In this document: positions 20,977 to 36,777 of the stretch, in pieces
How the letters are laid out: each line of letters starts with the position of its first letter
How positions within the stretch are numbered: the first letter of the stretch is position 1
Assembly (NCBI RefSeq): GCF_018780625.1
Contig: NZ_JADMJK010000046.1
Coordinates: 1 to 53,155 of the forward strand
Length of the DNA: 53,155 bases
Origin: Polaromonas sp.
GTDB lineage: Bacteria; Pseudomonadota; Gammaproteobacteria; Burkholderiales; Burkholderiaceae_C
Direction of reading: 5' to 3'
Made by a program: the position numbers and the translations under genes
Notes under the pieces: generated by a model
Database searches by the model: none
What the model was told of the DNA's origin: nothing
The model's input: the letters and a program-made list of their open reading frames with translations, nothing else

Positions 20977-22329
20977 ATGACCGAGCAGCGCTCAACGACC
21001 CCCGCATCCCCTGCCGCCCCGACTGAGTGCGATGTATTGGTGATTGGCGGTGGCCCGGCGGGTTCCACGGTTGGGGCGCTGCTGGCGCAACGGGGGCACA
21101 AGGTCGTGGTCCTTGAAAAAGAACACCATCCGCGCTTTCACATTGGCGAGTCGCTGTTGCCGGCCAACTTGCCGCTGCTTGAAAAACTCGGGGTGGCAGA
21201 GGCCGTCAAGGCCATCGGCATGGAGAAATGGGGCGCCGAATTTGTCTCGCCCTGGCATGACAGCAAGACCCAGACTTTCAAGTTTGGCGACGCCTGGGAC
21301 AAATCCATGCCGTTTTCCTACCAGGTGCGGCGTTCCGAGTTCGACGAAATCCTGATCCGCAATGCCGCCAGATTGGGCGCTGAAGTGATTGAAGGCTGCC
21401 GGGTTCGCGATGTGGCTTTTGCGCCTGACCACAGCGGCGCCACGGTTCATGCCGAGCACGACGATGGACGCTCCGAGCGCTGGCGCGCGCGCTTTGTGGT
21501 GGACGCTTCGGGCCGCGACACGTTGCTGGGCAAGCAGTTCGACACCAAGCGCCGCAACCCCAGGCACAACAGCTCGGCGCTGTATGCCCACTTCACAGGT
21601 GCCACGCGTCATCCGGGCCAGGACGAAGGCAACATCACGATTTTCTGGTTCGAGCACGGCTGGTTCTGGCTGATCCCGCTGGCCGACGGCAGCACCAGCA
21701 TCGGTGCCGTGGTGTGGCCGCATTACCTGAAGAGTCGGAGCAAGCCGGTCAAGGATTTTTTCCTTGACACGATTGCCATGTGCCCTGCGCTGGCCGAGCG
21801 GCTGGTCCACGCCACGCTGTCGTCCGATGTGGCCGCGACCGGCAATTTCTCGTACGCCTGCGAGCAAACGCACGGACCCAACTACCTGCTGATTGGCGAT
21901 GCCTTCACCTTCATTGACCCGGTGTTTTCGTCAGGCGTCATGCTGGCCATGCAGGGCGGCTTTGTAGCGGCCGAGACGGTGGATGCCTGCCTGCGGGAAC
22001 CCGAAAAAGCCGTGTCGGCGCTGGCGCATTTTGACCGGCAGGTCCGGCTGGGGCCCAAGGAGTTTTCGTGGTTTATTTATCGGGTGACGAACCCGGCCAT
22101 GCGCGACATGTTCATGGCGCCGAGCAATGTCTGGCGCGTGAAGGAAGCGCTGCTGTCGATGCTGGCCGGCGATATTTTTGGAAAAACACCGATCTGGCGC
22201 TCGATCGCGGCGCTCAAGGGTATTTTTTACATTGCCTCCGCCTGGAACTTCAGGCGCTCGTGGCAGGCCATGCGCTTGCGCAAGGCCAACATTCGCGTCG
22301 TTGAGGGCTCAGAGCCGGCGGCACGTTAA
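20977..22329 (+). CDS. Flavin-dependent halogenase-like oxidoreductase
   Basis: A 450-residue FAD protein of the tryptophan-halogenase/geranylgeranyl-reductase superfamily. The FAD-binding GGGPAG is at residues 24-29 and the ribose-binding EKEHHPRFHIGESLLP follows. A GWFWLIPL segment (W229-x-W231-x-I-P234) matches the WxWxIP motif of flavin halogenases, and Lys84 lies where these enzymes carry a catalytic Lys. LLIGDAFTFIDPVFSSGV is the second FAD motif. Similar genes occur in xanthomonadin clusters, whose pigments are brominated. A GAAGGA ribosome site supports the ATG at 20977. Halogenation is plausible, but it could be a plain monooxygenase or reductase. Confidence 0.82.
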   Translation: MTEQRSTTPASPAAPTECDVLVIGGGPAGSTVGALLAQRGHKVVVLEKEHHPRFHIGESLLPANLPLLEKLGVAEAVKAIGMEKWGAEFVSPWHDSKTQTFKFGDAWDKSMPFSYQVRRSEFDEILIRNAARLGAEVIEGCRVRDVAFAPDHSGATVHAEHDDGRSERWRARFVVDASGRDTLLGKQFDTKRRNPRHNSSALYAHFTGATRHPGQDEGNITIFWFEHGWFWLIPLADGSTSIGAVVWPHYLKSRSKPVKDFFLDTIAMCPALAERLVHATLSSDVAATGNFSYACEQTHGPNYLLIGDAFTFIDPVFSSGVMLAMQGGFVAAETVDACLREPEKAVSALAHFDRQVRLGPKEFSWFIYRVTNPAMRDMFMAPSNVWRVKEALLSMLAGDIFGKTPIWRSIAALKGIFYIASAWNFRRSWQAMRLRKANIRVVEGSEPAAR

Positions 22330-22353
22330 AAGGCCGCCGCACGCACTGACTTT

Positions 22354-23169
22354 ATGGAAAACAAGCGAAATACCGTTCTGAACAAGCACGTGACGCTGAA
22401 CGCCGTTCGCCGGGCATTGCATGAAACCATCAGGCTGCACCTAGGCTTTGTGGCGTTGGGCGTGATCTGCCTCGCCGTCACGCTGTTGGCCTTCCCGCTG
22501 CGCGCGGCTTTGCCGCGCGTGCTGAGCAAGCGGATCGGCCGCAAGCTCGTCGCCGCCATGTTCCGGGGCTATCTGCGCCTGCTGGTTTTTATGGGCGCCT
22601 GTCGCTTCGAGCTGGCAGAGCTTGATGCGCTGCAGGACGGCCCGGCCATGGTCATCGCGCCCAACCATCCGTCGCTGCTCGATGCCGTGATGATTTTGTC
22701 GCGCCTGCCCAATGCGGCCTGCATCGTCAAAGCCGATATCGTCGACAGCGTCTTTTTCGGTGCGGGCGCCCGGCTGACGGGATACATTCCGAACACGCCG
22801 TTGCGCGCCATGGTGCAATTGGCGGTTGCCGACCTGCGCCAGGGTAGCCATTTGCTGTTGTTTCCCGAGGGCACTCGCACCACCCGGTTCCCTGTCGGCC
22901 CGGTGCAGGGGACCGCCGGACTGATCGCCAAACATGCGCGCGTGCCGGTGCAGACGGTTTTTATTGAAACCAATTCGGGCTTTCTGGGCAAAGGCTGGTC
23001 GGTGTTGTGGCGGCCGAAAATGCCCATCACTTACCGAATCCGCCTCGGCAAGCGCTTTGATCCGCCGCGGCACACCGCGCAATTTGCGAGCGAACTCGAG
23101 CAGTACTTCCAGTCCGAACTGGCGCATGCGCAGTTACCCGATTTTCCTGTCTCGGCGCCGCCGGCCTGA
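22354..23169 (+). CDS. Lysophospholipid acyltransferase (PlsC family)
   Basis: A 271-residue acyltransferase with the HX4D motif (H105-P-S-L-L-D110) and the acceptor motif LLFPEGTRTTRFP. One hydrophobic segment (LGFVALGVICLAVTLLAFPL, about residues 30-49) anchors it to the inner membrane. It is 24 bp after the halogenase-like gene. In aryl-polyene loci such enzymes are thought to pass the polyene acyl chain to a glycerol or sugar lipid head group. A general phosphatidic-acid role is less likely given the context. Confidence 0.85.
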   Translation: MENKRNTVLNKHVTLNAVRRALHETIRLHLGFVALGVICLAVTLLAFPLRAALPRVLSKRIGRKLVAAMFRGYLRLLVFMGACRFELAELDALQDGPAMVIAPNHPSLLDAVMILSRLPNAACIVKADIVDSVFFGAGARLTGYIPNTPLRAMVQLAVADLRQGSHLLLFPEGTRTTRFPVGPVQGTAGLIAKHARVPVQTVFIETNSGFLGKGWSVLWRPKMPITYRIRLGKRFDPPRHTAQFASELEQYFQSELAHAQLPDFPVSAPPA

Positions 23170-23202
23170 GCCGGGCCTGTTTTCTTTTTTTGCTCAGGTT
23201 TG

Positions 23203-23985
23203 ATGCCGATGAATGCTTTCCCATCTAACGCGTCCCGCACGCATCTTGTGCTGATTCCCAGCTACAACCCCGGCCCCAAGGTGTATGAAACGGTGCGCTC
23301 GGCACGCGCGCAATGGACGCCGGTCTGGGTCGTGGTGGATGGCAGCACCGACGCCAGCGCAGCAGGACTGCAGGCGATGGCGGCGCAGGATGAAGGTTTG
23401 CGGGTGCTCGTGCTGCCGCACAACGTCGGCAAGGGCGCTGCCGTGTTGCACGGGCTGGACCTGGCCGCAGCGCAAGGTTTCACGCATGTGCTGACCATGG
23501 ACTCCGATGGCCAGCACCCGGCCCACCTGATCCCCGACTTCATGGCCGCGTCAAGCGCGCAGCCCGCTGCCATGGTGCTGGGTGTGCCGGTGTTCGCGGC
23601 CGACGCGCCGCGCCTGCGTGTCAACGGCCGCAAGGTGTCGAACTGGTGGGCCAATCTGGAAACGCTGTGGGCCGGGATTGGCGATTCGCTGTTCGGTTTT
23701 CGCGTCTACCCGATCGAGCCGCTGCGCAGCGTCATGCGCGACCAGCGCTGGATGCGCCGCTTTGATTTTGACCCCGAAGCCGTGGTGCGCATGTGCTGGC
23801 GCGGCGTCAAACCCGTCAATCTGCCTGCGACGGTGCGCTACTTTCGTGCCGATGAAGGCGGCGTCTCGCATTTCAACTACCTGCGCGACAACCTGCTGCT
23901 CACCTGGATGCATTCGCGTCTCCTGGCCGGATTTGTGCTGCGCTTACCCGTGCTGCTCATGCGCCGCGCGCTCGGCCGCTTTTGA
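23203..23985 (+). CDS. Family 2 glycosyltransferase
   Basis: A 260-residue GT-A fold glycosyltransferase of family 2. The nucleotide-binding IPSYNPGPKVYETV region is near residue 18, VVVDGSTD near 43-50, and the metal-binding DSD at 100-102 in MDSDGQHPAH. A hydrophobic C-terminal segment (LLAGFVLRLPVLLM) suggests membrane association. The start could be 23203 or 23209; a TTG at 23200 is less likely. It probably glycosylates the aryl-polyene lipid made by this locus. Its last 42 bp overlap the convergent antiporter gene. Confidence 0.86.
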   Translation: MPMNAFPSNASRTHLVLIPSYNPGPKVYETVRSARAQWTPVWVVVDGSTDASAAGLQAMAAQDEGLRVLVLPHNVGKGAAVLHGLDLAAAQGFTHVLTMDSDGQHPAHLIPDFMAASSAQPAAMVLGVPVFAADAPRLRVNGRKVSNWWANLETLWAGIGDSLFGFRVYPIEPLRSVMRDQRWMRRFDFDPEAVVRMCWRGVKPVNLPATVRYFRADEGGVSHFNYLRDNLLLTWMHSRLLAGFVLRLPVLLMRRALGRF

Positions 23986-25266
23986 ACGCGGCGGCACCGG
24001 AATACCGATACGCGGCAGCCAGCGCCGCAACAGCGGGCTGGTGATGACGGTACTGAATATCGCCATGATCACCAGGATGGTAAACATCTGTTGCGAGATC
24101 ACGCCCAGGTCGTAGCCGACATTGATCACGATCAATTCCATCAGCGCGCGGGTGTTCATCATGATGCCCATGACCTTGCCCTCAAAGTGGTTCATCCCCG
24201 CCACACGTGCCGCCGCGTAGGCGCCGCCGTACTTTCCCACTGTCGCGAGAAAGACGATGAGCGCGCACCAGCCCCACGCCGCCGCACTGTCGAGGCTGCC
24301 GATATTGGTGCGCAGGCCGGTATAGGTAAAAAAGATGGGCAGGAAAAACACCATGACAAACGGGCTGATGCGCGCCTTCCAGGTGCGCACAAAAGCATGT
24401 TCGTCATACAGCAACACGCCCATCATGAAGCCGCCAAAGATGGCGAAAATGCCGAGCTGGTAAGTGCTCATGGCGGACAGGAAAATGGCCGCCAGCACGA
24501 TACCGAGCAGGTTGTGCGAGAGCGCCCCCGAGCCTGCATCGCAACGATGCAGGATGCGTTTCATGACAGGGCGCACGCCAAACCAGCTGAACAGGAAAAA
24601 CCCCAGCACCAGTACCACTTTGACCGCAAAGCTGGCAGCATCGAACGCCGACAGGGTGAGTGTGGTGATGAGCGCCAGCAGCAGCCAGCCGATGACGTCA
24701 TTAATCGCCGCCGCGCTGATGGCGATGACGCCAATCGGTGTGCGTGTCATGTTGAATTCCATCATGATGCGTCCGAGTATCGGCAATGCCGTAATCGAGA
24801 AGGCAGTCGCCACAAAGAGCGCAGACCCCAGCGGATGTGCGCCGGGAGAGAGCACGGGCGCGCTGACCTGGCCGACGGCAAAACCCAGTGCAAACGGCAC
24901 CACCAGGCTGGCACCTGCCACCCACATCACGACGCGGCGATTGCGGCGCTCGGCCAGGTGTGCGAAATCGAATTCCAGGCCAATCTGAAACATCAGCAGC
25001 ACCAGGCCGATTTGCGACAGCATCTGCATCGGCTCTGGTGCGCCGGAGTGAAACACATATTGAAATACATCGGGGGCCAGCAGCCCGAACAGTGAAGGCC
25101 CCAGCAGGATGCCGATCACGATTTCACCGACCACGGCCGATTGCCCCATACGCAACGCGATCCCGCCGCCGATACGCGCGGCGAGCACGATCACGGTGAG
25201 TTGCAGCAGGGTAAAAAAGAGCAGCGCTTCGGTTGCGTGGGTGGCGCTGTTAATGGCTGTGGTCAT
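23944..25266 (-). CDS. Kef/NapA-type cation:proton antiporter
   Basis: A 440-residue CPA2-family antiporter with about 12 hydrophobic helices and no cytoplasmic TrkA-N domain. Helix-typical motifs include GEIVIGILLGPSLFGLLAP, the LLMFQIGLEFD segment and the AINDVIGW region, where a conserved acidic residue binds ions. It ends with a short basic tail. The ATG at 25266 is preferred over an upstream TTG. It lies between the two arms of the pigment locus, downstream of the ketoreductase gene, with a strong hairpin in the 180-bp gap. Whether it belongs functionally to the pigment system is unclear. Confidence 0.87.
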   Translation of the reverse strand: MTTAINSATHATEALLFFTLLQLTVIVLAARIGGGIALRMGQSAVVGEIVIGILLGPSLFGLLAPDVFQYVFHSGAPEPMQMLSQIGLVLLMFQIGLEFDFAHLAERRNRRVVMWVAGASLVVPFALGFAVGQVSAPVLSPGAHPLGSALFVATAFSITALPILGRIMMEFNMTRTPIGVIAISAAAINDVIGWLLLALITTLTLSAFDAASFAVKVVLVLGFFLFSWFGVRPVMKRILHRCDAGSGALSHNLLGIVLAAIFLSAMSTYQLGIFAIFGGFMMGVLLYDEHAFVRTWKARISPFVMVFFLPIFFTYTGLRTNIGSLDSAAAWGWCALIVFLATVGKYGGAYAAARVAGMNHFEGKVMGIMMNTRALMELIVINVGYDLGVISQQMFTILVIMAIFSTVITSPLLRRWLPRIGIPVPPRSKAAERAAHEQHG

Positions 25267-25303
25267 GGATTTTTCGAGCAATCGGTCAGGCCGGACAGCG
25301 CCG

Positions 25304-25332
25304 CCCTGGCCCCAAACGGTTTGTCGCCAGGG
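25304..25332. repeat. Strong hairpin between ketoreductase and antiporter genes
   Basis: CCCTGGC (25304-25310) pairs with GCCAGGG (25326-25332), and the inner CAAAC-G-GTTTG continues the stem. On the minus strand it is not followed by a T-run, so it may be a regulator site, an mRNA-stabilising hairpin or a weak terminator of the long pigment operon. Confidence 0.4.
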
Positions 25333-25446
25333 TGATTTCGGGTTGAAATGGAAAGCTTGCCGTGAACGAGCGACTCACGCCGGGAATGCGGGCCATGAGG
25401 TGCATGCATCCCGGCAGTCGGTTCATCGGCTTTCATGCAGATTTTC

Positions 25447-26166
25447 TTAAATCATGCCGCCGTTGATTGAAATGATCTGGCCGCTGATGTACGCGGCGCG
25501 TTCCGAGGCCAGAAAACTGACGAGGTCCGCCACTTCTTCGGGCCGGCCAGCGCGCTTCATGGGAACCAGCTGGGCAATGGTGGGTGCATCAAAGGTGTCC
25601 TGGCTCATGGGCGTGGCGATGATGCCGGGTGCCACGGCATTGACGGTGATGCCGCGGCTGGCCACCTCGAGTGAGAGCGATTTGGTGGCGGAGTGCAGCG
25701 CGCCCTTGGCGGCCGAGTAGTTGACCTGACCGCGGTTGCCGGCCACAGCTGCGACCGATGTGACGTTGATGATGCGTCCCCAACGTGTGCGGATCATCGG
25801 CATCATCAGGGGCTGGGTAACGTTGAAAAAACCATGCAGTGACACGTCGATCACACGGTGCCATTGCTCGGCCCGCATTCCGGGGAATACCGCGTCGTCA
25901 TGGATGCCGGCATTGTTGACCAGGATCTGGATGGGGTTTTGCTCCAGCAGCGGCTTGAGTGCGTCCGCCGTCGCCGTTCTGTCCGTCACATCGAACATCA
26001 GCACCTGCGCGCTGCCACCCTGTGCGGTGATCTCGTCCGCCAGTGCATGCGCCGCGTCGGCGCCGCGGTGGGCGTGGATGAAAACATGGCAACCATCAGC
26101 TGCCAAGCGCCGACAGACGGCGGAGCCGATGCCGCCGCTGCCGCCTGTGACCAGCGCGTGTTTCAT
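25447..26166 (-). CDS. 3-oxoacyl-ACP reductase (FabG-like, aryl polyene)
   Basis: A 239-residue short-chain dehydrogenase/reductase that would reduce the beta-keto group after each elongation of the polyene chain (the ApeQ role). It has the NADP-binding TGGSGGIG, the NNAG motif, the catalytic Ser in INVTSVAAVAG and the YSAAK active-site pair, and a C terminus SGQIISINGGMI typical of FabG. The ATG at 26166 overlaps the stop of the dehydratase gene by ATGA; a longer frame to 26307 would begin inside that gene. It is the last gene of the minus-strand operon. Confidence 0.9.
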   Translation of the reverse strand: MKHALVTGGSGGIGSAVCRRLAADGCHVFIHAHRGADAAHALADEITAQGGSAQVLMFDVTDRTATADALKPLLEQNPIQILVNNAGIHDDAVFPGMRAEQWHRVIDVSLHGFFNVTQPLMMPMIRTRWGRIINVTSVAAVAGNRGQVNYSAAKGALHSATKSLSLEVASRGITVNAVAPGIIATPMSQDTFDAPTIAQLVPMKRAGRPEEVADLVSFLASERAAYISGQIISINGGMI

Positions 26167-26633
26167 GGTGTGTCTCCTGATTGTTGTGGCGCCTGGGCGA
26201 TACTTTCCGCGTTGACAACCACGGCTGCACGGCCATCTATCAGCAGGCGCCCGGCTGCGTGGAGGCTGAACTGGTAGAGGATATGGTCGCCGCTGCTGCT
26301 CATGCACACGGCTTCGATGTCGAGATCGGCATCGATGTCGTCCAGCCGCGGTACATGCATATTCGTGCCGCGCACACTGACCAGGAAGCCTGCAGCCGGG
26401 CGTTTGCTGCCGGCAGGGGCCTGAAGTGCACCGTGCACCGCCATGGCCTGCGCTGCATACTCAATGCCGCAGGCAGCGCTGAGCTGATCGCGTGAACGCA
26501 GCGGGTTGTCGGCGCTACGGTGGCTGCTGGCACGGCAATGGATCCGCTGGCTATCCCAATGCACCACGCGGTCGAGCAGACACATGGTCCCCTGATGCGG
26601 AATATGACCGGCAATCCAGGCGTGGTCTAGCAT
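26163..26633 (-). CDS. 3-hydroxyacyl-ACP dehydratase (ApeP-like hotdog)
   Basis: A 156-residue hotdog-fold protein resembling ApeP dehydratases of aryl-polyene clusters. The N-terminal IPHQGTMCLLDRVVHWD, with His13 as the likely catalytic residue, is the FabZ-like active-site strand. SAACGIEYAAQAMAVHGAL is the central helix. It should dehydrate the hydroxyacyl-ACP made by the FabG-like enzyme to leave a trans double bond. It overlaps both neighbours by a few bases. A second, shorter hotdog gene lies at 34112-34447. Confidence 0.85.
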   Translation of the reverse strand: MLDHAWIAGHIPHQGTMCLLDRVVHWDSQRIHCRASSHRSADNPLRSRDQLSAACGIEYAAQAMAVHGALQAPAGSKRPAAGFLVSVRGTNMHVPRLDDIDADLDIEAVCMSSSGDHILYQFSLHAAGRLLIDGRAAVVVNAESIAQAPQQSGDTP

Positions 26634-27424
26634 GGGCTTATGTCTACGGACAGACGCGCGGTATCGAGATAGTCCAGCACCACATGGGCCGTCTCGCGCT
26701 TCGCAACAAGGCGCAACAAGGGCAGGCTGCGTGCAGCAGGAATCGCCTTGCGCAAGGCTTCCAGTGCGCTGTCGTCAAGTTGCTCTGCGGCTGCATCGCC
26801 AAGGCTGACGCTGACTTTTGCCAATGAACGGTCGCTCTGCCGGGGCGCCAGCACCATGGCAACGCCAAATGCGTCTGGCAGGGGACGGATGCTATGCATG
26901 GGCTCAGGATAAGGCGTGTCGCAGGCCAGCAGCAGGCAAGCTTTGTTGTCAGCGACGACCTGGGCCAGCGTCTCCAGCAAACCAGCGCCGAAGCTCGCGT
27001 CAAACGCGCACAAGACCGACGATGCAGCCATGGCGCCAGTGGCGATGCCCCAGTAGCCGGCCGCTGCGTTGTGGACCGAATTGTGAAAGCGGGTGGGGGA
27101 TATCTGGCGATCGTCGGAGGCCAGCATCTGGCAGATTTCGTGGCAGTTGTAGCCATCGCTGCTGGATGCGGAAAACACCATCGGCAGTTGGCTCACGTCT
27201 AGCCCGGCTGCGGCAACTGCTTCCAGGCCGGTGGCCAGGGTCAGTTTGACGATGCTGCTGCTGCGCCGGCGTTCTGCCGCGGGCAGGCTTAGCGGCGGTG
27301 GCAACAGCGTCGGGCTGAACTGGTAAGGCTGCTGCCCGGTGAAAATGGCCAGGCTGCCTGGCCAGCCGTTCAGGCCCGGTCCTGACAGACCGATGCCCTC
27401 GATGTAGGCGGTGAGTGTCTGCAT
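26627..27424 (-). CDS. Beta-ketoacyl synthase chain-length factor
   Basis: A 265-residue ketosynthase-like protein that is much shorter than a true ketosynthase and has no Cys in the expected active-site context (VFSASSSDGYN, and later SPTRFHNSVHNAAAGYWGIATG). These are features of the chain-length-factor subunit (ApeC) that pairs with the elongating ketosynthase in aryl-polyene synthesis. The ATG at 27424 is preceded by a GGAGG site. A longer frame to 27562 would begin inside the ketosynthase gene. It probably forms a heterodimer with the product of 27426-28643. Confidence 0.87.
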   Translation of the reverse strand: MQTLTAYIEGIGLSGPGLNGWPGSLAIFTGQQPYQFSPTLLPPPLSLPAAERRRSSSIVKLTLATGLEAVAAAGLDVSQLPMVFSASSSDGYNCHEICQMLASDDRQISPTRFHNSVHNAAAGYWGIATGAMAASSVLCAFDASFGAGLLETLAQVVADNKACLLLACDTPYPEPMHSIRPLPDAFGVAMVLAPRQSDRSLAKVSVSLGDAAAEQLDDSALEALRKAIPAARSLPLLRLVAKRETAHVVLDYLDTARLSVDISPC

Positions 27425-27425: not shown

Positions 27426-28643
27426 TTAGTGGATGCCTCCCTTGCCTCGTCCAAGCACCAGGCTGCAGTTGGTGCCGCCAAAGCCGAAGGAGTTGCTGAG
27501 CACATACGAAACCGCTTGCTCACGGTTGTCGAGCAGGTAATTGAGGGGCAGCGCGGGGTCAAGCTTCTGCGTATTCACGCCACCCGGCATCAGCCCGTGT
27601 TGCAGTGCCAGCGCGCAGATCACCGCCTCCAGGCCGCCGGCAGCGCCCAGGGTGTGGCCGGTTGCGCCTTTGGTCGAACTGCAGGGTGTGCTTGACCCGA
27701 ACAGCGCGGCCACGGCCTTGGCTTCGGACGCGTCGTTGCTTGGGGTGGCGGTGCCATGCAGGTTGATGTAGTCAATATCGGCTGCATGAAGATGCGCCAT
27801 TTCCAGCGCAGCCTGCATGGCCATGCGGGCGCCCAGGCCCTCAGGGTGGGGCGAGGACATGTGATATGCATCGCTGGATTCGCCCACCCCGAGCAGCAAC
27901 ACGGCATCCTCATCCAGCGAGCCCGGAACGCGTTCCAGCAGGGCAAATGCTGCCGCCTCGCCGATGGAAATGCCGTCCCGTGCGGCGTCGAACGGTCGGC
28001 AGGGCTGCGCAGACATCAGGCCAAGGGAATTGAAGCCATACAAGGTGGTCAGGCACAGCGAATCCACGCCGCCCACCACCGCCGCGTCTATCAGTCCTGC
28101 GGCTATCATGCGGCGGGCCGAGGCAAATACCTTGGCGCTGGATGAGCACGCCGATGACACCACGGCGGCCGGACCGGTCAAGCCAAAATAATGACGCGTG
28201 AAATCGGCGACCGAAAAAGTATTGTGCGTGGTGTTGTAAATGAAATCGGCAGGGAGGGCTCCGCTCGCCGGGTCGCGCCTGCGATAGGCCAGCTCCGTCT
28301 GCAGAATGCCGGAGGTGCTGGTGCCAATAAATACGCCAACGCGCTGCGCGCCATATTTTCGGGCGGCGGCCGCTACGGCTTCGGAAAAGCCGTCCTGCAT
28401 CAAGCCCAGCAAGGCCAGCCGGTTATTGCGGCAATCAAAGGCGGCCAGATGCGCGGGGAGTTGCACGGCATCCACCCCCGCAACCTCGCCCACAAAAGTG
28501 GGCAAATCCACGGTGTCAAACGCGCAAGGCACCAGGCCACTGTGGCGCTGGCGCAGTGCGGCAAGGGTCTGCTGAAGGCCGCGACCGATACTGCTGGTCG
28601 CGGTGAAATGGGAAAGCCAGAGCGGGTACAGAGAAAACACCAA
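27426..28643 (-). CDS. Beta-ketoacyl-ACP synthase (aryl polyene elongation)
   Basis: A 405-residue FabF-type ketosynthase with a full Cys-His-His triad: C166 in SSACSSSAKV, H296 in NLHGTATPSND and H330 in STKGATGHTLG. It should condense malonyl-ACP onto the growing polyene chain (ApeO/ApeR role), together with the chain-length factor encoded one base downstream. The start is uncertain: TTG at 28643 or GTG at 28640, with no strong ribosome site, so translation may be coupled to the PAP2 gene 45 bp upstream. Confidence 0.9.
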   Translation of the reverse strand: MVFSLYPLWLSHFTATSSIGRGLQQTLAALRQRHSGLVPCAFDTVDLPTFVGEVAGVDAVQLPAHLAAFDCRNNRLALLGLMQDGFSEAVAAAARKYGAQRVGVFIGTSTSGILQTELAYRRRDPASGALPADFIYNTTHNTFSVADFTRHYFGLTGPAAVVSSACSSSAKVFASARRMIAAGLIDAAVVGGVDSLCLTTLYGFNSLGLMSAQPCRPFDAARDGISIGEAAAFALLERVPGSLDEDAVLLLGVGESSDAYHMSSPHPEGLGARMAMQAALEMAHLHAADIDYINLHGTATPSNDASEAKAVAALFGSSTPCSSTKGATGHTLGAAGGLEAVICALALQHGLMPGGVNTQKLDPALPLNYLLDNREQAVSYVLSNSFGFGGTNCSLVLGRGKGGIH

Positions 28644-28688: not shown

Positions 28689-29384
28689 TCAAATGAGCGG
28701 CTGGCTGACTTTAATGGCAACTGTCGTCTTCAGGTGATGTCGCAAGGACAGCCCGGCGGTTAGCCCGCCGAGCGCGACGCCGGCCCACATGTCCACGGCA
28801 ACATGCTGGCGTGTGGCCAAAGTGGAATAGACGATGCCGATACACCACAGGCCATTGATCGAGAGTATCCACCACGGCCCCCCCAGCCGACGCAGCAAGT
28901 GATGTAACCAGATGCCAGAAAAAACGGCTGTGGCCACATGTAGGGAAGGGAAGGCATTGCCCGAGGCGTCCATGTTCTTAAGAAACAGCATCTCCGGATA
29001 CCGGGCCCAGTCGATATCGGCCACTGGTGCCGTTGTGGGCCAGAAATAAAAAACAGTCAGCCCTGCGAGGCAGGTCAGGGCGGCTGCCATCCCGTAGCGA
29101 TAGAGTTCGCCTCGTGTGGCAAGAAATATGGGGGGTAGTGAGACATAGACCCACAGCGACAGGTACACCGGCAAGGCCAGCGGTTGAAAGTCGATCAGGC
29201 TGTCCAGCAAGGTGGTTGGCATCACCGTGATCGGGTAGGCCGGATTTTTGAGTACGTAGAAATAAGCGAAGAAAAACAGGCTGATGAAGAGTGTCGTGCC
29301 GATACTCTTCAGATAGATATGTTTGGGAATGAGCTTTGCAGCTTGCCGATACCATGGCTCGGCATCAACTCGCCTGGCGTTCAT
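28689..29384 (-). CDS. PAP2-family membrane phosphatase
   Basis: A 231-residue inner-membrane protein with about six helices and PAP2 active-site motifs facing the periplasm: NAFPSLHVA, which supplies the PSxxH element, and TRQHVAVDMWAG, with the H-x3-D element. Such enzymes remove phosphate from lipids, polyprenyl pyrophosphates or inositol lipids, or transfer phosphate-linked head groups. The ATG at 29384 overlaps the deacetylase stop by ATGA, so it is part of the pigment operon. Its substrate could be a phosphorylated polyene glycolipid intermediate; this is inference. Confidence 0.83.
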   Translation of the reverse strand: MNARRVDAEPWYRQAAKLIPKHIYLKSIGTTLFISLFFFAYFYVLKNPAYPITVMPTTLLDSLIDFQPLALPVYLSLWVYVSLPPIFLATRGELYRYGMAAALTCLAGLTVFYFWPTTAPVADIDWARYPEMLFLKNMDASGNAFPSLHVATAVFSGIWLHHLLRRLGGPWWILSINGLWCIGIVYSTLATRQHVAVDMWAGVALGGLTAGLSLRHHLKTTVAIKVSQPLI

Positions 29385-30184
29385 GAAAGCGCCTGCCGCA
29401 AGGTCACGGTGCGCAATTGTGCGGCCGCAGCGGACTCCAGTAAAGCCGGCAGCACTTCGAGAATGACCGGGATGCCTCCGGCTGTGCGCGCTGCATTGCC
29501 ATCGTGAAGCAGCAAAATGGCGCCCGCGTGCAGGCCCCGCAATAGCTTGTTTTTTACGCGTCCAGCGTCGCCGACCCGGGTATCGAAGCCACGAACCGAC
29601 CAACTTGCGAGGGTGAGCCCGAGTCGATGAAGCACCGGGTCGAGAAAAGGGTTGCGCAAGCCGGCGGGGGCGCGAAAGAACAGGGGGCGCTGACCGGAAA
29701 TGGACGTGAACGTGTCCTGGGCGGCCTGCAATTCACGCCTCATGGCGCGCGGCCCCATCAGCGAGAAATGGTGCCAATGATGCTGGCTATGGTTTTCGAC
29801 GGCATGGCCGCGGCGAACGATCTCCCGGCACAAATCGGGATACCGGGCAGCTTTCTCGCCGATACAAAAAAAGGTGGCCTGCGCCGCATACCGATCCAGG
29901 ATATCGAGCAGTTGCGGAGTGACAGCCGGGTCGGGGCCGTCATCAATGGTCAGGGCAATTTCATTTCTGGCGGTTGCGGCGGCGGGCAGCCGGGTCCAGT
30001 TCGGTCCCAGCCAGTGGCTGCGCGGCCACAGGCCCATGCCGGCTATCAGCAGGTGATTGATAAGGACCGCCGCGAGCACCCAGCGCCATTGCCCGGGTAG
30101 CGCGATGACGGTGAGGAATGCCAGCACATGCAGGGCCACAGAGGCGCGTATCAGCAGCGTGGGTTGCCAGCGTGACTCAGGCAT
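29381..30184 (-). CDS. NodB-type polysaccharide deacetylase
   Basis: A 267-residue membrane-anchored carbohydrate esterase family 4 protein. Two hydrophobic N-terminal helices (about residues 10-52) precede the NodB domain. The metal triad is visible as D82 in TIDDGPDP with H131 and H135 in NHSQHH. FFRAPAGLRNP and ILLLHDG are the third and fifth motifs. It would remove N-acetyl (or similar) groups from a sugar at the membrane. It overlaps the exporter gene and the PAP2 gene, so it belongs to the aryl-polyene operon, where it may trim the head-group sugar added by the glycosyltransferase. Confidence 0.85.
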   Translation of the reverse strand: MPESRWQPTLLIRASVALHVLAFLTVIALPGQWRWVLAAVLINHLLIAGMGLWPRSHWLGPNWTRLPAAATARNEIALTIDDGPDPAVTPQLLDILDRYAAQATFFCIGEKAARYPDLCREIVRRGHAVENHSQHHWHHFSLMGPRAMRRELQAAQDTFTSISGQRPLFFRAPAGLRNPFLDPVLHRLGLTLASWSVRGFDTRVGDAGRVKNKLLRGLHAGAILLLHDGNAARTAGGIPVILEVLPALLESAAAAQLRTVTLRQALS

Positions 30185-32525
30185 TGGCTTGCCTGGAAAA
30201 AATGGCTGAATACATCAGCGCCAGTATGACGCCCGGTGCCACGGTGGCGCCCATGGCCTGCAATATGGAGACATTGGAAAATGCCAGCAGACCAAAACCT
30301 GCAACGGTGGTGAGGTTGGCAAACAACATCGAGACCAGCGTACGGGGCGCGATCGGTGTGCGCGGATCAGGCCGGTCAAAGAACAGCGCGTAATTGGAGC
30401 CGATAGCGACCACCAGCAAAAAACCGACCAGGTGCAGAATAATCAATTGCTGTCCGAAAACAGCCAATCCCGCCATGACGGTAATGACTGCGGCGACGAT
30501 CGGAACGACGATCCGGAGCACACGCATGGGCGAGCGAAAAACCAGCAACAGCAGTGCAACGATGGCAATCACTCCGCCTAGCGACAGCAGGACGACTTCA
30601 TGCAGGTAGCCGGAGTACAGGCGATCTGATTCGGCTTTCATGTCGACAAACAGAACGTCGGGCAAACCGCTTGCATGCAATGCTGCGCGAATACGACCGG
30701 CATTGATGTCGATTCCTTCGGGTGCGGTCAGCGGTAACAAGGCGCGCCATTGCTTATCCTGCTGTATGAGCAGGGCGTCTATCGCCATGGCCATGGAGGT
30801 CTTCTCGACGTCGACTGCCTGCAGCAGAGGCTGGCTGCGGGCGGCGGCGACATCCGCCAGAAACGGCGTAAACAGGTTTGCCCGCACCGGCAGGCCCTGA
30901 ACCGCTTTTGCAAGCTGTGTTTCGAGCTGGGCGGGTGTTGGCAGACTGGCCTGGCGTGCGCGCTGCGTCTCGGCGCTTGGAAGGTAACGGCCAGGGCTCT
31001 CGAATCTGGCCAGTTCTCCCTGGTCGACATGCACTTGCAGCAGTGTTGAGACTTGCTCGGAAGAGCGCAATACAGCTTCCCGGCTGGTGCCGGATACCAC
31101 CACCAGATAGCGCACATCGGGTGCGCCCATATCGGCGCGCAGGCGCTCATCGAGCGCTACATCGGCTTGCGATACCGGGCTCAAGGACGATATCTTGTCA
31201 TTCAGCAAGCTGGCGCGGTTATTGACCAGGACGATGCACGCCGCCAGCAACAGCATGGCCGCCGGCCAGCGCAGCGACGCGGCGCGCCCTGCCAGTTGGG
31301 CCAGTACGCGTCCAATGGCCGATACATCATGGATTCGAAACTTCGCCGGCAGCAGATGCGGCAGCACGAAACGTGTGACGGTGGCGGCGCTGACCAACCC
31401 GGCAATCGAATACAGGCCGAGTTGTGCCAGCCCCGGAAAGCCGGACAACAGCAGTGAAGCAAAACCGAATATAGACGTCAGAACGCCGAGCCGGATCGTG
31501 GGCCAGAAGCGCTTGATCCAGTTTTGCTGGTCTGCGCCATCCTGTTCGGATTGCACGAACAGGTAGATGGAATAATCCACCGCCTCGCCGATCAACGCAG
31601 TGCCAAATCCGAGGGTGATGCCATGCACCGACCCAAAGCCCAGGCTGACGGCGGCGATGCCTGCCAGAACGCCGCTGATGACCGGCAAATAGCCCAGGGC
31701 AAGTGCAGTGAAGGAACGATAAACCAGCAGTAAAAGCGTCGCAATGAGGACGACGCTGATGATGGAGAGGCGGCTAACCTGACTTTTGATGGTGTCCCGC
31801 GAGGTCACCGAAAACACGCCGGGCCCTGTCATCACCAGTTTGGCGCCAGGGCTTGCGGCGGCTGCCGTGTCAAACGCTTGCTGGATGGACGCCATGGCGC
31901 GCTGCTGGGCGTCTGTATCGGAGCCTGCGGCGCGCGTTTGTATCAGCATCAAGGCACGCGCGCCGTCGCGTGAGGCCCATGCGCCATCCACCAGATGGGG
32001 GCGACTGCCGCTGTTGAACTGGTCAAGCAGTTGCATCATCTCGCCGGTCGGATCGCGTGGCAGCATGGATTTGACCAGCAGGCCGGCAGGCGAGGCGAGC
32101 AGATCGATACTGTCGCTCAGGGCGGCATGCAGGCCTTCTTCCGTGAAGCGCGCGGGTGTGACTGCAGGGCTCAACAGGTAGCGGTTGTTGAACAGGAAAG
32201 CGCGGTCGCGCTCGGTGTTGACGGGTTCGCCATTGTTGATGGTGACGAAAGCCGGATCGGCGCGCAGGCGCTGGGCGACCTGCCTGGAAATTCCGGCACG
32301 CGCGGGTGCATCTGCGCCTTCAATGCCCACCAGAATAAGGCGTGAAGTCAATCCCTCCTTCAACTGATCCATCAGCAATTGCTGTTCGGGTGTGGGATTG
32401 CTCGGCAAAAATGCCGACAGGTCCGTGGTGAAGTGGCTGCGGCTGATGATGACGCTGCACGCCAGCAGGAACGCCAGCCACAGCGCGATAGCGGTCATGC
32501 CCCGGCGGCGCATTGGCGTCATCAC
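30177..32525 (-). CDS. MMPL/RND-family lipid exporter
   Basis: A 782-residue transporter of the MMPL type with two repeats. Each has a large periplasmic loop (about residues 35-240 and 430-620) followed by five or six clustered helices. One first-half helix cluster includes GFGTALIGEAVDYSIYLF, and a second-half cluster includes VVAIGSNYALFF, which are MMPL-like. In aryl-polyene loci this protein moves the finished lipid towards the outer membrane with the LolA-like carrier encoded just upstream. The start is at the first of two adjacent Met codons (32525 or 32522). Confidence 0.9.
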   Translation of the reverse strand: MMTPMRRRGMTAIALWLAFLLACSVIISRSHFTTDLSAFLPSNPTPEQQLLMDQLKEGLTSRLILVGIEGADAPARAGISRQVAQRLRADPAFVTINNGEPVNTERDRAFLFNNRYLLSPAVTPARFTEEGLHAALSDSIDLLASPAGLLVKSMLPRDPTGEMMQLLDQFNSGSRPHLVDGAWASRDGARALMLIQTRAAGSDTDAQQRAMASIQQAFDTAAAASPGAKLVMTGPGVFSVTSRDTIKSQVSRLSIISVVLIATLLLLVYRSFTALALGYLPVISGVLAGIAAVSLGFGSVHGITLGFGTALIGEAVDYSIYLFVQSEQDGADQQNWIKRFWPTIRLGVLTSIFGFASLLLSGFPGLAQLGLYSIAGLVSAATVTRFVLPHLLPAKFRIHDVSAIGRVLAQLAGRAASLRWPAAMLLLAACIVLVNNRASLLNDKISSLSPVSQADVALDERLRADMGAPDVRYLVVVSGTSREAVLRSSEQVSTLLQVHVDQGELARFESPGRYLPSAETQRARQASLPTPAQLETQLAKAVQGLPVRANLFTPFLADVAAARSQPLLQAVDVEKTSMAMAIDALLIQQDKQWRALLPLTAPEGIDINAGRIRAALHASGLPDVLFVDMKAESDRLYSGYLHEVVLLSLGGVIAIVALLLLVFRSPMRVLRIVVPIVAAVITVMAGLAVFGQQLIILHLVGFLLVVAIGSNYALFFDRPDPRTPIAPRTLVSMLFANLTTVAGFGLLAFSNVSILQAMGATVAPGVILALMYSAIFSRQANA

Positions 32526-33139
32526 GGTGTTGCCGATTTTTCGATGGTCATCAGGGAGCTGTCACCGTCGGCCTGGGTAATTTCAATGCTGCGGACCTGG
32601 TCGCGCACACCGGTGATGCTGATGCGCTTGATGACGGCCAGCATTTTTTCATTCAGCGGCAGCAGTTGCAGCGTCCAGTGCTCGGCTGTGCCTTCCAGGC
32701 TCAGTCGGTAGCTGCGTTCCAGTGCCTTGCGGTCGCCAGCCAGGGTGCCGCGAATACTGTCGATGAAGGCGGCCAGTTCCGGGTAAGCCTGTAACTGCAG
32801 GCGGTGTTTTTGCTGCCCGCGTTCAATAAACAACTCCCCGCCGTTGATCACCATGGATTCGGGTTTGGGTTTGATTGTGCGTTTTTCGAGCCCGTCCGGC
32901 GCGGTGTAAACAAGCTCCCCCGATGACTCGACGGGTTTGTCGAGCATGGCTATATATTTTTTTTCGACGAAGGTGGTGTGGCCGGACTTGTTTTGTGCCA
33001 GCGTATCCATCAGCTGCTGGAGGTCCCAGGCGGCGAAGGCTGACTGTCCTATTGCGGCCAGCAACAAGCCAATCGCCAGGGATGCCGGGGAGCGCGCCCA
33101 GCGGATCGCAAATATCGGGTGGTGAAGGAAGGGCATCAT
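32522..33139 (-). CDS. LolA-like outer-membrane lipid carrier
   Basis: A 205-residue protein with an N-terminal signal segment (SPASLAIGLLLAAIGQSAFA) and a LolA-like beta-sheet domain (FVEKKYIAMLDKPVESSGELVYTAPDGLEKR; MVINGGELFIERGQQ). It likely escorts the hydrophobic polyene lipid across the periplasm. The ATG at 33139 follows the stop of the acyltransferase gene by four bases; a longer frame to 33202 would start inside that gene. It overlaps the MMPL exporter gene by ATGA, matching a transport pair. Confidence 0.85.
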   Translation of the reverse strand: MMPFLHHPIFAIRWARSPASLAIGLLLAAIGQSAFAAWDLQQLMDTLAQNKSGHTTFVEKKYIAMLDKPVESSGELVYTAPDGLEKRTIKPKPESMVINGGELFIERGQQKHRLQLQAYPELAAFIDSIRGTLAGDRKALERSYRLSLEGTAEHWTLQLLPLNEKMLAVIKRISITGVRDQVRSIEITQADGDSSLMTIEKSATP

Positions 33140-33143
33140 GGTG

Positions 33144-34115
33144 TCAGGTGATTTCTGCGGAGTGTCCTGCTTTTCGCGGCATGGGGGCGCGCCAAAAGTC
33201 AAAAAAATTGAACCAGTTGTAGGGGGCGACGTAACAGTATTGCGCCATCAGTGCAGCATAACGGCTCATGGCTGCCTCAACCGCCAGGGTACGACCGCGC
33301 GGCGGGAGTGCCGAAAAATCGGCCAGGGTCTCAAAGTGAATGTCGTAGCGGTTGCCGCTGCGGTACAAGCCTGTCATGAAGACGACGGGTCGCTTCAGGA
33401 TGGCGGCCATGCGAAAGGGACCTAGCGGCAGTTCGGCCGTATCGCCCAGAAACTCAACGGGACGCGTGTCGTCGCTGCCAAGCGAACGGTCGGCCAGCAT
33501 GCCGACTACGGTGCCTTGGGCCAGCAGTTCATGCACCTGGATCATCGAGTCAATGTGACCGAGGGCAATGATGTCCTGCTGCGCTTTCGGGTTGATGGCG
33601 CACAGTGCCGCATTGATCTTGCGCGCATTTTCTTCGTACATCACCATCGCCACGCGCAGCCCGGGTTGCCTGCGGCCAATGGCCCGCAGCACTTCGAAGC
33701 TGCCCATGTGGGCACCGATCAGGAACACGCCCTGGCCATCGGCCACGATCTTGTCGATAAGCGCCTGGTTGTGAACGCGAATATCGAACAGATCAAAGCG
33801 GTCGTTGAGCAGATAAACACGGTCGTGGATGGCCGACGCGAAACTCAGGAAATGCCGGAACAGATGTCGCCAGCCAACGGCTGCAGCCGATGGCAGCTTG
33901 AGCACACGGCGCAGATAATTGCGGGAGGTGCGGCGGGCCGCAGGTGCAAAGGCCAGAAAGTAGGCCGCAATCCCGTACAGGACAATGCGGCTCGCGCTTC
34001 GGCCCAGGCGCAACGAGATCCAGGTCATCACCCGCAGCATGAACAGGTTGCTGCGCTCAGGATTTTGTTGCCATTGAGCGCTTCCCATTGCCGCGGTATC
34101 GCCTTCCTTTTTCAT
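33144..34115 (-). CDS. LpxL/HtrB-like acyltransferase
   Basis: A 323-residue lipid A late-acyltransferase-family protein. The catalytic HX4E motif is H136-M-G-S-F-E141 in IGAHMGSFEVLR. One hydrophobic segment lies near residues 44-60. The GMLADRSLGSDD and FLGDTAELPLGPFRMA segments are typical of the family branch found in aryl-polyene clusters. It may attach the polyene or an ordinary fatty acyl chain to the lipid carrier. It overlaps the hotdog gene upstream by ATGA. Confidence 0.87.
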   Translation of the reverse strand: MKKEGDTAAMGSAQWQQNPERSNLFMLRVMTWISLRLGRSASRIVLYGIAAYFLAFAPAARRTSRNYLRRVLKLPSAAAVGWRHLFRHFLSFASAIHDRVYLLNDRFDLFDIRVHNQALIDKIVADGQGVFLIGAHMGSFEVLRAIGRRQPGLRVAMVMYEENARKINAALCAINPKAQQDIIALGHIDSMIQVHELLAQGTVVGMLADRSLGSDDTRPVEFLGDTAELPLGPFRMAAILKRPVVFMTGLYRSGNRYDIHFETLADFSALPPRGRTLAVEAAMSRYAALMAQYCYVAPYNWFNFFDFWRAPMPRKAGHSAEIT

Positions 34116-34447
34116 GGCGCCGGTGCCAACACCAGCGTGCCCGTGGCCACTTTTCGGCTTCCGCTTGAAATGTCAAAGCGCATGCTGCCCGAGGCCGAGG
34201 TGGTGCAGGAAATAGTCAAGGTCTCGCCCGGACTGACCGGACTGAGGAATTTGGCAGCGCTGATCTGGCAGATATCTTTTGCGCCGTCTTCGCCTCTGTC
34301 GCTGGATGAGGAAGCGTGCATGGCCTGCCGCGCGGTGTGAACAGCGGCGTCGAGCAACAGCACGCCGGGAAAAATCGGCCTTCCCGGAAAATGCCCGGCA
34401 AAAGCCGGATGGTCCGGCGCAATGAAGAGCGTTGCTTCACTTTGCAT
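34112..34447 (-). CDS. Short hotdog dehydratase (ApeI-like)
   Basis: A 111-residue hotdog protein with the FabA/FabZ-type motif HPAFAGHFPGRPIFPGVLLLD, in which His19 is the likely catalytic residue. Aryl-polyene loci usually encode two such dehydratase-type subunits (ApeI and ApeP); the second is at 26163-26633. They may act as a heteromer. The start overlaps the end of the acyl-ACP synthetase gene by 11 bp. Confidence 0.85.
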   Translation of the reverse strand: MQSEATLFIAPDHPAFAGHFPGRPIFPGVLLLDAAVHTARQAMHASSSSDRGEDGAKDICQISAAKFLSPVSPGETLTISCTTSASGSMRFDISSGSRKVATGTLVLAPAP

Positions 34448-35807
34448 GGGCTACCTTTTTACGGTGCTCGCGCGCCAGCGCCTGAAGCGTTTCCCGGGGT
34501 AGTTTGCCGGTGCTGTTGCGTGGCAGTGATTCCAGCAGCACCAATGGCCTCGGGATGAAAACGGCGTCAATACGCTCGCGCAGGGCCGCCAGCAGCGCGG
34601 GCGCCGTCATGTGGGGGGCTACTGCAAAGGCCGTCAGGCGCGTCACCGTGACATCCTCCTCCTCGTCTGGCATAAAAAACGCGCCATCGATCACGCCCGC
34701 TACGGCGTTGAGCTGATGGTTCAGGTAGCCGAGCGAGCTGCGTTTGCCCGCGATGTTGATCAGATCGGCGGTGCGGCCATGCAGAAGAAAGTGCTCGCCA
34801 TCCAGCAGTTCGAGTTCGTCTCCCAGGGGTGTGGCCTGCTCAAGGTGACCGCCCGAAGCCCAGACGCGGCCCTGCGTGGAACTGAGCATGATTTCCGGGA
34901 AAAGCGTCCACTCGGTGGCTTGCGTCGTGCGGCGGTAGGCTATCTGGCCCGTTTCGGTCGAACCGTAAATCTCAAAAACCGGTGCCTGCAAGCGCGCCTC
35001 GGCAGCCGTTGCCAACTGGGGCGACAAGGGCGCGGTCGCCGAAAGAACCAGATCGGGCAAGGGAATGTCCAGGCCCGATGCCAGCAACACCTTCAGGTGC
35101 ACCGGGGTGGTGACCAGCATACGGGGGCGGGGCGCCTCCGCCAGTGTTGAGCAGATGTCGGCCGGGTAAAACGGATGCGCCACGCACATGGCAGCACCGC
35201 TTTGCAGGGCAATCAGCACCGAGGATTCAAAGCCAAACATGTGCTGCGGCGGCACCGTGGCCACGATGCTGTGGCGCTGCCCGTCGAGCAGACCCAGGCG
35301 GCCCGCTTCAGCGCGCACACTATGAACCAGTCCGCCCCAGCTTTTGCGGTGCGCCACAGGTGCGCCGGTCGAGCCCGAAGTGAACACGATGGCGGCCGTG
35401 CGTGAGCCGGAAATCTCTGGAATGTCCAGGTTTTCAGTTTGCTTGCCAGCCCTGGCCGGGGAGGGCGCTGTCAAGGTGTCCACCCATGAAAATTGAGGCA
35501 GGGCGATGGCTTGCGGCTGGTCCGTCAGGCAAAACACATCGGGTGCAAAGTCCTTGACCTGACGCACCATCTCCGGCGTGAGCGTGGGTGGCAGCAGGCT
35601 GATCTTGTCGGCCAGCAGGGCCGCGGCCATGCCGACGGCAAACCTGTAACGGTCACTGCAGACATTGAGCACATGCTTGCCCGCTGGCAATGCGGCTGCA
35701 AGTTGCCGGACGTCCGCCAGAAAATGCGCCGCAGTAATGGGCTGGTCAGGGCCGTAGGCGATGACGTCCTGGGCATGCGCATGCGTGATGAGCGGAAAGG
35801 TGATCAT
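34437..35807 (-). CDS. AMP-binding acyl-ACP synthetase (ApeH-like)
   Basis: A 456-residue member of the adenylate-forming enzymes, with the P-loop AAIVFTSGSTGAP, an HRKSWGGLVHSV segment and VFEIYGSTETGQIAYR. It ends in the small lid domain, with the catalytic Lys in PRNSTGKLPRETL. It would activate the aromatic starter acid (for example 3- or 4-hydroxybenzoate or a cinnamate) and load it on the ACP encoded upstream. The ATG at 35807 overlaps the stop of the preceding membrane-protein gene. A longer frame to 35909 would begin inside that gene. Confidence 0.88.
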   Translation of the reverse strand: MITFPLITHAHAQDVIAYGPDQPITAAHFLADVRQLAAALPAGKHVLNVCSDRYRFAVGMAAALLADKISLLPPTLTPEMVRQVKDFAPDVFCLTDQPQAIALPQFSWVDTLTAPSPARAGKQTENLDIPEISGSRTAAIVFTSGSTGAPVAHRKSWGGLVHSVRAEAGRLGLLDGQRHSIVATVPPQHMFGFESSVLIALQSGAAMCVAHPFYPADICSTLAEAPRPRMLVTTPVHLKVLLASGLDIPLPDLVLSATAPLSPQLATAAEARLQAPVFEIYGSTETGQIAYRRTTQATEWTLFPEIMLSSTQGRVWASGGHLEQATPLGDELELLDGEHFLLHGRTADLINIAGKRSSLGYLNHQLNAVAGVIDGAFFMPDEEEDVTVTRLTAFAVAPHMTAPALLAALRERIDAVFIPRPLVLLESLPRNSTGKLPRETLQALAREHRKKVAHAK

Positions 35808-36484
35808 GGGTGGCTGCCAGGCTGCGCAGAGCCCTCTGTTGAAGCCTTTCGGTAGGCGCGAATGGACTCCAGCGGCCCGGCCCGTTCGGCCGCCGGCAGC
35901 AGGTAACAACGCGCAGCATATTCCCCCATGAACATCAGCACCAGCAAGGGAATGCCCAGGAGGTAGGCAAACGCCGACCAGACGTTAACGGGGGCCAGCC
36001 AGAACAGCAGCAGGGAGATGCCCGCAATACCGCCAAAATACAGGGTCCAGGCCCAAGTGGCAGATCGTGTGTAACGGATGAGCGCGGTCGACATGCCGCC
36101 ATGCACGATATGGGCAAAGCGCGAAATCATCGGGGTTTCGCCGTGGCGCAAGCTCAGGCCGAAAGTGGCGCAGAGCATTAAATAGGTGCCGGCATGCTCC
36201 AGCAGGAAAACCCAGTTGTAATGGGCAATCAGCCAGTTCTTGCTGCCATAGAGCAGGGCACAGACCACCAGCCAGAGGGTCAGCATGCGCGCGCGCCGGA
36301 CCGAGCGCCAGGCCAGCAGGAATGACAGCACCAGCATGGGCGTCACGGCGACCAGGGCACCCAGGAGCGCATGCGTTGTCGACGTGGCGGTGAAATGGGA
36401 AAGCACCGCGTAACCAACGGCCAGAAGGCCGATAAATCCCCAGCGACAGGCTTGGAGCAACCGCGTCGCCAGCTGGCTTGTCAC
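35804..36484 (-). CDS. Aryl-polyene cluster membrane protein (COG4648 type)
   Basis: A 226-residue integral membrane protein with about six helices, matching the COG4648 type found in aryl-polyene clusters (ApeG), which is sometimes misannotated as 'DNA gyrase subunit B'. FGLSLRHGETPMISRFA in the middle is a family-like stretch. Its job in the pathway is unknown. It overlaps the ACP gene upstream and the synthetase gene downstream by ATGA. Confidence 0.8.
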   Translation of the reverse strand: MTSQLATRLLQACRWGFIGLLAVGYAVLSHFTATSTTHALLGALVAVTPMLVLSFLLAWRSVRRARMLTLWLVVCALLYGSKNWLIAHYNWVFLLEHAGTYLMLCATFGLSLRHGETPMISRFAHIVHGGMSTALIRYTRSATWAWTLYFGGIAGISLLLFWLAPVNVWSAFAYLLGIPLLVLMFMGEYAARCYLLPAAERAGPLESIRAYRKASTEGSAQPGSHP

Positions 36485-36777
36485 TTGGTACGTTGCGCCG
36501 CGATATGGTCGCTCAGGCTGCGCAGCGAATGAAAAATGGCGTGGTTGTCGTCATGGTCTGCGCGGAGCTGAAGGCCATAGCGTTTGGAGACCACGAGCGC
36601 AATTTCAAGAATATCGATGGAGTCAAGGCCCAGTCCGTCGCCATACAGTGGCTCGTCCGCCTGCACGTTGGCGGCAGCAACTTCCAGGTTCAGGGCGCTC
36701 ACCACCAGTTCGGCGACTTCAAGCAGCAGGGCCGCGTCAGCCGGTGTGGACAAAGCTTGGAGGGGCAGTTCGGACAT
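36481..36777 (-). CDS. Acyl carrier protein
   Basis: A 98-residue acyl carrier protein. The phosphopantetheine attachment site is S53 in DGLGLDSIDILEIAL, and the following helix (ALVVSKRYGLQLR) is normal for carrier proteins. It is the first gene of the minus-strand operon and presumably carries the growing aryl-polyene chain. Characterised clusters generally have two ACPs; only this one is visible, so the other is lost or located elsewhere. Confidence 0.92.
   Translation of the reverse strand: MSELPLQALSTPADAALLLEVAELVVSALNLEVAAANVQADEPLYGDGLGLDSIDILEIALVVSKRYGLQLRADHDDNHAIFHSLRSLSDHIAAQRTK

Follow-up and report, generated by a model that had tools for sequence, protein, structure and literature searches.

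A probable aryl-polyene pigment locus with a halogenase-like ArcA/XanB1-type gene in Polaromonas sp.

Does an aryl-polyene locus that retains a halogenase motif make a halogenated pigment? The question is raised by positions 20977-36777 of a contig of Polaromonas sp. (NZ_JADMJK010000046.1, assembly GCF_018780625.1; the whole analysed stretch of 53,155 nucleotides is referred to as the window). A first-pass annotation had described a split locus there, with a full polyene-building set and a protein carrying the halogenase motif WxWxIP, and had suggested that it may make a halogenated, glycosylated aryl-polyene lipid related to but distinct from xanthomonadin. Our analysis points to an ordinary aryl-polyene locus of the xanthomonadin/arcuflavin kind, for a yellow membrane pigment, in which a halogenase-like ArcA/XanB1-type gene is common. 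Judged from sequence, we regard this reading as highly probable (roughly 0.88).

Gene content, layout and known relatives

Open reading frames (ORFs) were combined with Pfam and NCBIfam profile searches, and the gene content was observed directly: 17 genes, three on the forward strand and 14 on the reverse strand (Table 1), as the annotation had placed and described them. The two groups converge head-on at about 23.95 kb. All 17 genes are open, and the ratio of nonsynonymous to synonymous substitution rates (dN/dS) lies between 0.073 and 0.414 for the genes compared, with up to four comparisons each and a single one for the antiporter. The ketosynthase (KS) and its chain-length-factor (CLF)-like partner are adjacent. 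An acyl carrier protein (ACP) and an AMP-forming ligase, presumably specific for aryl acids, are both encoded, together with a ketoreductase (KR), dehydratases, an MMPL exporter and a LolA-like carrier. The short-chain dehydrogenase/reductase gene scored best as FabG, and no enoyl reductase was found among the family matches of the locus genes. The full polyene-building set is therefore confirmed as far as chain assembly goes, whereas neither a gene for starter supply nor one for a methyltransferase was detected.

From this gene set we infer every chemical step and the product. The ArcT-type ligase would load hydroxybenzoate onto the ACP, and the KS/CLF pair would extend the bound starter with malonyl units, while the KR and the dehydratases would leave double bonds in the chain. 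Acyltransferases and the family 2 glycosyltransferase (GT2) would link this polyene acid to an anchor in the membrane, and the MMPL exporter and the LolA-like carrier would deliver the pigment to the outer membrane. There it may serve as a shield against light and oxidants.

To place the locus among its relatives, named genomes were scanned, which gave at least 597 matched stretches; a relative is encoded in 584 of these. The best 80 are called the named loci; since the best matches were retained, counts over them are biased to close kin. The nearest of the 80 belong to Polaromonas sp. Three or more further genes of the set were present in 60 of them, in the sequence retrieved; five had none, all with less than 1 kb of sequence downstream of the halogenase. 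A KR was detected in 52 named loci, and in 47 of these it sits downstream of the halogenase and on the opposite strand. Thus the locus is split, as first noted, and this convergent layout is a common arrangement.

Published systems agree with this placement. Clusters of this kind have been reported in Azoarcus, Dechloromonas, Variovorax and Sideroxydans, and their highly conserved genes include a glycosyltransferase and an acyltransferase (PMC3949708). The idea of a distinct kind of locus is thus not supported, nor is that of a glycosylated product. The closest comparison is Azoarcus BH72 with its arcuflavin clusters azo3910-3921 and azo0253-0264. Table 1 of PMC3949708 lists in cluster 1 the halogenase arcA, a chorismatase, an acyltransferase, a glycosyltransferase, an Na/H antiporter, a KR, a dehydratase, a KS-like protein and a KS, and in cluster 2 a polysaccharide deacetylase, an exporter, LolA, an acyltransferase, a dehydratase, an AMP-ligase, a hypothetical protein and an ACP. 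The window locus resembles these two halves joined, some genes lacking: equivalents of arcA, D, E, G, H, I, J and K, and of arcN and P-V, stand in the listed order within each half. However, no equivalent of arcB (chorismatase), arcC, arcF, arcL, arcM (methyltransferase), arcO or arcW/X was seen in it, and it has a PAP2 gene that this table does not list.

Like the xanthomonadin cluster of Xanthomonas, the locus encodes a halogenase-type flavoprotein, an ACP, a dehydratase, an AMP-ligase, an exporter and acyltransferases (PMC3838355), as well as a KS and a CLF-like protein (PMC3949708). XanB1 is described as a 'putative reductase/halogenase' and adjoins XanB2 (PMC3838355); this xanB2 chorismatase has no counterpart in the window locus. 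The Fig. 5 legend of PMC3691225 counts halogenase genes among those conserved next to KS/CLF, with Lysobacter and Xylella as exceptions. With apeA-R of E. coli CFT073 the locus shares a KS and CLF, a KR, dehydratases, an acyl-ACP synthetase, an RND transporter, a LolA-like chaperone and a membrane-protein gene between the ACP and the synthetase; it differs in that Table 1 of PMC8253772 lists a thioesterase, two ACPs and a methyltransferase for apeA-R and no halogenase-type gene. The proposed relation to xanthomonadin is thus upheld for an aryl-polyene locus with an intact halogenase-family protein and a glycosyltransferase gene.

The locus lies between mutS and a suhB-type gene, and both flanks were found in five of ten other Polaromonas sampled (G014, G020, G026, G029 and G035); the stretches from G004, G033 and G008 were covered in part only. 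Several points weigh against the assignment made above. Two further genomes, G016 and G028, have suhB and no mutS in the sequence examined, so the site differs between genomes. The Azoarcus BH72 and Xanthomonas sequences are not among the 80 loci, although kin, among them Thauera and Dechloromonas, are in the tree, and the ArcA/XanB1 equivalence therefore rests on family and gene order rather than on direct alignment. We know of no chemistry for any Polaromonas locus of this type. Finally, no starter enzyme of a known type was found, and the locus may be silent or reliant on hydroxybenzoate from outside.

The halogenase-like protein and halogenation of the pigment

Flavin-dependent halogenases are recognised by a flavin adenine dinucleotide (FAD) motif, WxWxIP, FxxPxxSxG and an active-site lysine; hypohalous acid (HOX) is formed at the flavin and then handed to this lysine. 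The product of the halogenase-like gene is full length and its ORF intact. It contains GGGPAG at residue 24, KWGAEF at residue 84, WFWLIP at residue 229 and FIDPVFSSG at residue 312, and we take Lys84 to be the active-site lysine. The retained WxWxIP that had first drawn attention is thus real, and the predicted protein carries each motif examined. Its structure was predicted with a mean confidence (pLDDT) of 82.8. The best single-sequence matches in the PDB were flavin halogenases (8zop, 6.5e-65; 3e1t, 7e-57; ChlB4, 2.1e-54; PltA, 2.5e-52). L015 was excluded from the first alignment for a stop in frame, and alignment A1 comprised 11 of the available sequences. In four Polaromonas comparisons dN/dS was 0.118-0.154, values that indicate purifying selection on the gene. 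Given intact motifs and these ratios, the enzyme is retained and probably functional.

Function as such does not tell which reaction is catalyzed. We compared 83 orthologues, namely the 80 named loci, two further ones and the window. WxWxIP and FxxPxxSxG were present in all 83 and GxGxxG in 80; the K84 column held lysine in at least 99% of the aligned rows, and the stricter string K-x-G-A/G-x-F occurred in 69. Since every orthologue has WxWxIP, its retention here is not special. The best PDB chain by profile was 3nix, which carries the same elements (WIWVIP, QKFGAKF, FLDPIFSSG) and bears only the name 'Flavoprotein/dehydrogenase'. The motif is thus not discriminating.

Two roles of the enzyme have to be weighed. 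In the first, it is active as a halogenase and the phenol ring of the pigment carries bromine or chlorine, as in xanthomonadins. The intact motifs with Lys84 and the halogenases among the best single-sequence PDB matches argue for this, as does the lack of a locus methyltransferase, which probably leaves the ring hydroxyl free and the phenol reactive. Published chemistry points both ways: Xanthomonas, whose clusters have a halogenase gene, makes xanthomonadins with zero to two bromine atoms, and Lysobacter, which lacks the gene, showed no brominated ions (PMC3691225), but Azoarcus has arcA and yet its arcuflavin, C41H52O4, is a nonbrominated polyene (PMC3949708). The presence of the motifs in 3nix and the under-cut-off scores of the best NCBIfam matches, the halogenase CmlS (195.2 of 900 bits) and the monooxygenase QhpG (177.2 of 240), likewise tell against it. 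Ring halogenation by the ArcA/XanB1-type flavoprotein is thus possible, but unproven and less likely than not.

In the second, the protein is a flavin monooxygenase or another redox enzyme of the pathway, and the final pigment carries no halogen. The Azoarcus cluster with its non-halogenated product (PMC3949708) fits this role, and so do the matches to non-halogenating relatives, QhpG (5.1e-52) and the geranylgeranyl reductase family (1.5e-39), both under cut-off. However, the CmlS score exceeds that of QhpG and the halogenase motif set is retained, so that we give such a role a good chance, though still short of an even one. In the open-licence literature we found no test of such a gene in any aryl-polyene cluster. 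A halogenase-like gene is commonplace in these loci and by itself no proof of a halogenated pigment; the halogenated product first proposed is not supported, given a motif shared by all orthologues and 3nix and an arcA cluster that makes a non-halogenated pigment (PMC3949708).

Starter supply and the nature of the product

In many related loci the halogenase is closely followed by a chorismatase. A chorismatase query from locus L021 gave, for 47 of the 80 named loci, a match that begins 90-372 bp beyond that of the halogenase, and a query from L045 gave the same count. It was missing in 25 loci with at least 3.5 kb of downstream sequence, and eight were too short to judge. The gap between the stop of the halogenase gene and the following start is 24 bases in the window, and the profile search found no chorismatase in the locus or in the rest of the genome, whose assembly comprises 3.62 Mb and is 89% complete. 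The starter must therefore come from another source, and we treat the starter-supply gene as accessory rather than as a core assembly feature.

The distribution of the chorismatase was mapped on a halogenase tree of 73 of the 83 rows, leaving out the eight downstream-short loci and two rows of at most 380 residues. The label 'no chorismatase' required 12 changes, compared with a mean of 21.0 after shuffling, so the gene has been gained and lost several times. It was absent from all ten rows of the Polaromonas/Ramlibacter/Rhodoferax group to which the window belongs; the tight coupling of halogenase and chorismatase genes does not hold in this group. Among 11 locus-bearing Polaromonas genomes examined, one encodes a complete chorismatase, located on a different contig, with 242.7 bits, under the TIGR04444 cut-off of 325 like all matches in that search. 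Chorismatase matches occurred in three of 37 genus genomes. One of them is a remnant of 46 residues with an internal stop (G008:C96:5729-5863), consistent with chorismatase loss in the Polaromonas lineage.

Other sources of hydroxybenzoate were searched for as well. UbiC, an Rv2949c-type lyase and an aromatic ammonia-lyase were not found in the 89%-complete genome; an ammonia-lyase was accordingly dropped as a starter source. UbiC was found in none of the 37 genus genomes versus 14 of 24 other genomes of the order, and the Rv2949c-type lyase in none of the 37, its five matches among the other genomes sitting at UbiC places. The near-complete, locus-bearing G026 and G029 gave no chorismatase, UbiC, Rv2949c-type lyase or PF00221 lyase; PF00221 matches occurred in four of 14 genomes, histidine and tyrosine lyases being counted together. 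Nine ubiA regions were compared for a neighbour that might be the missing chorismate lyase; several neighbours were conserved and none was picked out as a candidate. UbiA itself was above cut-off in 32 of the 37 genomes, that of the window included, so that 4-hydroxybenzoate is probably obtained somehow.

Either these searches, whose first step is a loose screen, overlook a divergent enzyme, or Polaromonas draws its hydroxybenzoate from elsewhere. That Polaromonas makes hydroxybenzoate for both ubiquinone and pigment through an enzyme outside the known families, the XanB2-free locus then yielding an unmethylated aryl polyene, is a conjecture that we consider rather doubtful. A decaying or conditional locus, which has lost starter synthesis and works only on hydroxybenzoate from outside, would agree with the lack of all four enzymes in the searched genome; the 17 open genes, the purifying selection on those compared and the presence of UbiA argue against it and make it unlikely.

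The product was further considered with respect to methylation and esterification. Of 11 Polaromonas loci that were compared, seven contain a UbiE-like methyltransferase gene, while those of the window, G020, G029 and G035 lack it; the G016 locus has both the methyltransferase and the antiporter. The best match to the locus-type methyltransferase in the genome of the window was only 28% identical. An arcuflavin-like ester of the polyene with a dialkylresorcinol might be expected from the polyene gene set, which is that of arcuflavin (PMC3949708). Yet the sole match to ketoacyl-ACP synthase III (PF08541) in the assembled genome is a housekeeping-type fabH beside plsX, and hence there is no DarB candidate, a further difference from Azoarcus. 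Such an ester is thus very improbable, although its rejection stays provisional with an 89%-complete genome and no search for darA.

Setting and history of the locus

A strong halogenase match was present in 12 of the 37 genus genomes, that of the window included; the copy of G017 is cut by a contig end. To gain insight into the recent history of the locus, the identity of the window to G020 and G016 was followed in 500-base steps. Identity to G020 was 91-97% over 15.5-20.5 kb and 25.5-36.5 kb versus 77-88% over 21-25.5 kb. In this middle part, six of nine bins were 92-99.6% identical to G016; the two that cover 22.5-23.5 kb reached 87-88%, and the final bin, which aligned in part, 94.7%. Over 25.5-36.5 kb identity to G016 fell to 67-87%. 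At 37-38 kb both genomes are close to the window. This switch suggests that the halogenase, acyltransferase, glycosyltransferase and antiporter genes differ in recent history from the polyene core; lineages of Polaromonas may have recombined not long ago, or the assembly may mix two populations.

Outside the locus, phosphonate-use genes occupy positions 2853-9921 of the window (PhnI, PhnJ, two ABC ATPases, an amidohydrolase-type protein and a phosphonate-binding protein). Molybdopterin oxidoreductase and nitrite/sulfite reductase-type genes lie at its right end (47791-53093) and are perhaps a nitrate/nitrite assimilation locus.

Table 1. Features of the aryl-polyene locus and its flanks, in window positions; named loci are counted out of 80
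Feature	Position	Strand	Basis
mutS, left flank, housekeeping, outside the locus	18002-20635	-	NCBIfam NF003810, 1005.6 bits, above cut-off
Segment nearest to G016	20900-25400		500-base identity profile; boundaries approximate
Flavin halogenase-like protein, 450 aa, arcA/xanB1 position and type	20977-22329	+	PF04820 Trp_halogenase, 1.9e-30; PDB halogenases; conserved motifs; dN/dS
PlsC-type acyltransferase (arcD type)	22354-23169	+	PF01553, 1.4e-13
GT2 glycosyltransferase (arcE type)	23206-23985	+	PF00535, 1e-20; in 71 named loci
Na+/H+ antiporter (arcG type)	23944-25266	-	PF00999, 7.3e-50; 99.8% identical to G016 antiporter
3-oxoacyl-ACP reductase (arcH type)	25447-26166	-	NF004200, 376.5 bits, cut-off 273
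Candidate dehydratase (arcI type)	26163-26633	-	No Pfam/NCBIfam match; position and conservation in related loci
KS-like CLF partner (arcJ type)	26627-27424	-	PF13723, 4.8e-25
Ketosynthase (arcK type)	27426-28643	-	NF006618, 579.7 bits, cut-off 407
PAP2-superfamily membrane phosphatase	28689-29384	-	PF01569/PF14378, about 1e-9; in 19 named loci
Polysaccharide deacetylase (arcN type)	29381-30184	-	PF01522, 2.8e-29
MMPL/RND exporter (arcP type)	30177-32525	-	PF03176, 2e-15
LolA-like carrier (arcQ type)	32522-33139	-	PF19574, 1e-25; LolA2_flexi, 2.1e-19, under cut-off
Lipid A-type acyltransferase (arcR type)	33144-34115	-	PF03279, 5.2e-11
FabA/FabZ/ApeI-like dehydratase (arcS type)	34112-34447	-	PF07977, 5.3e-12
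AMP-forming acid ligase (arcT type)	34437-35807	-	PF00501, 1.6e-25; 4_coum_CoA_lig, 4.7e-32, under cut-off
Membrane protein (arcU position)	35804-36484	-	No Pfam/NCBIfam match; placed by position
Acyl carrier protein (arcV type), far end of reverse-strand group	36481-36777	-	NF006617, 132.5 bits, cut-off 70
suhB-type inositol monophosphatase, right flank, housekeeping	36912-37970	-	PF00459, 5.6e-70

The locus is real, intact and of interest to the pigment biochemist, and its kind is already known. An easy over-reading is corrected: in aryl-polyene loci the halogenase motif is conserved as a trait of the protein family and is no evidence that the pigment carries a halogen. The broken pairing of halogenase and chorismatase makes the hydroxybenzoate source of Polaromonas a testable question.

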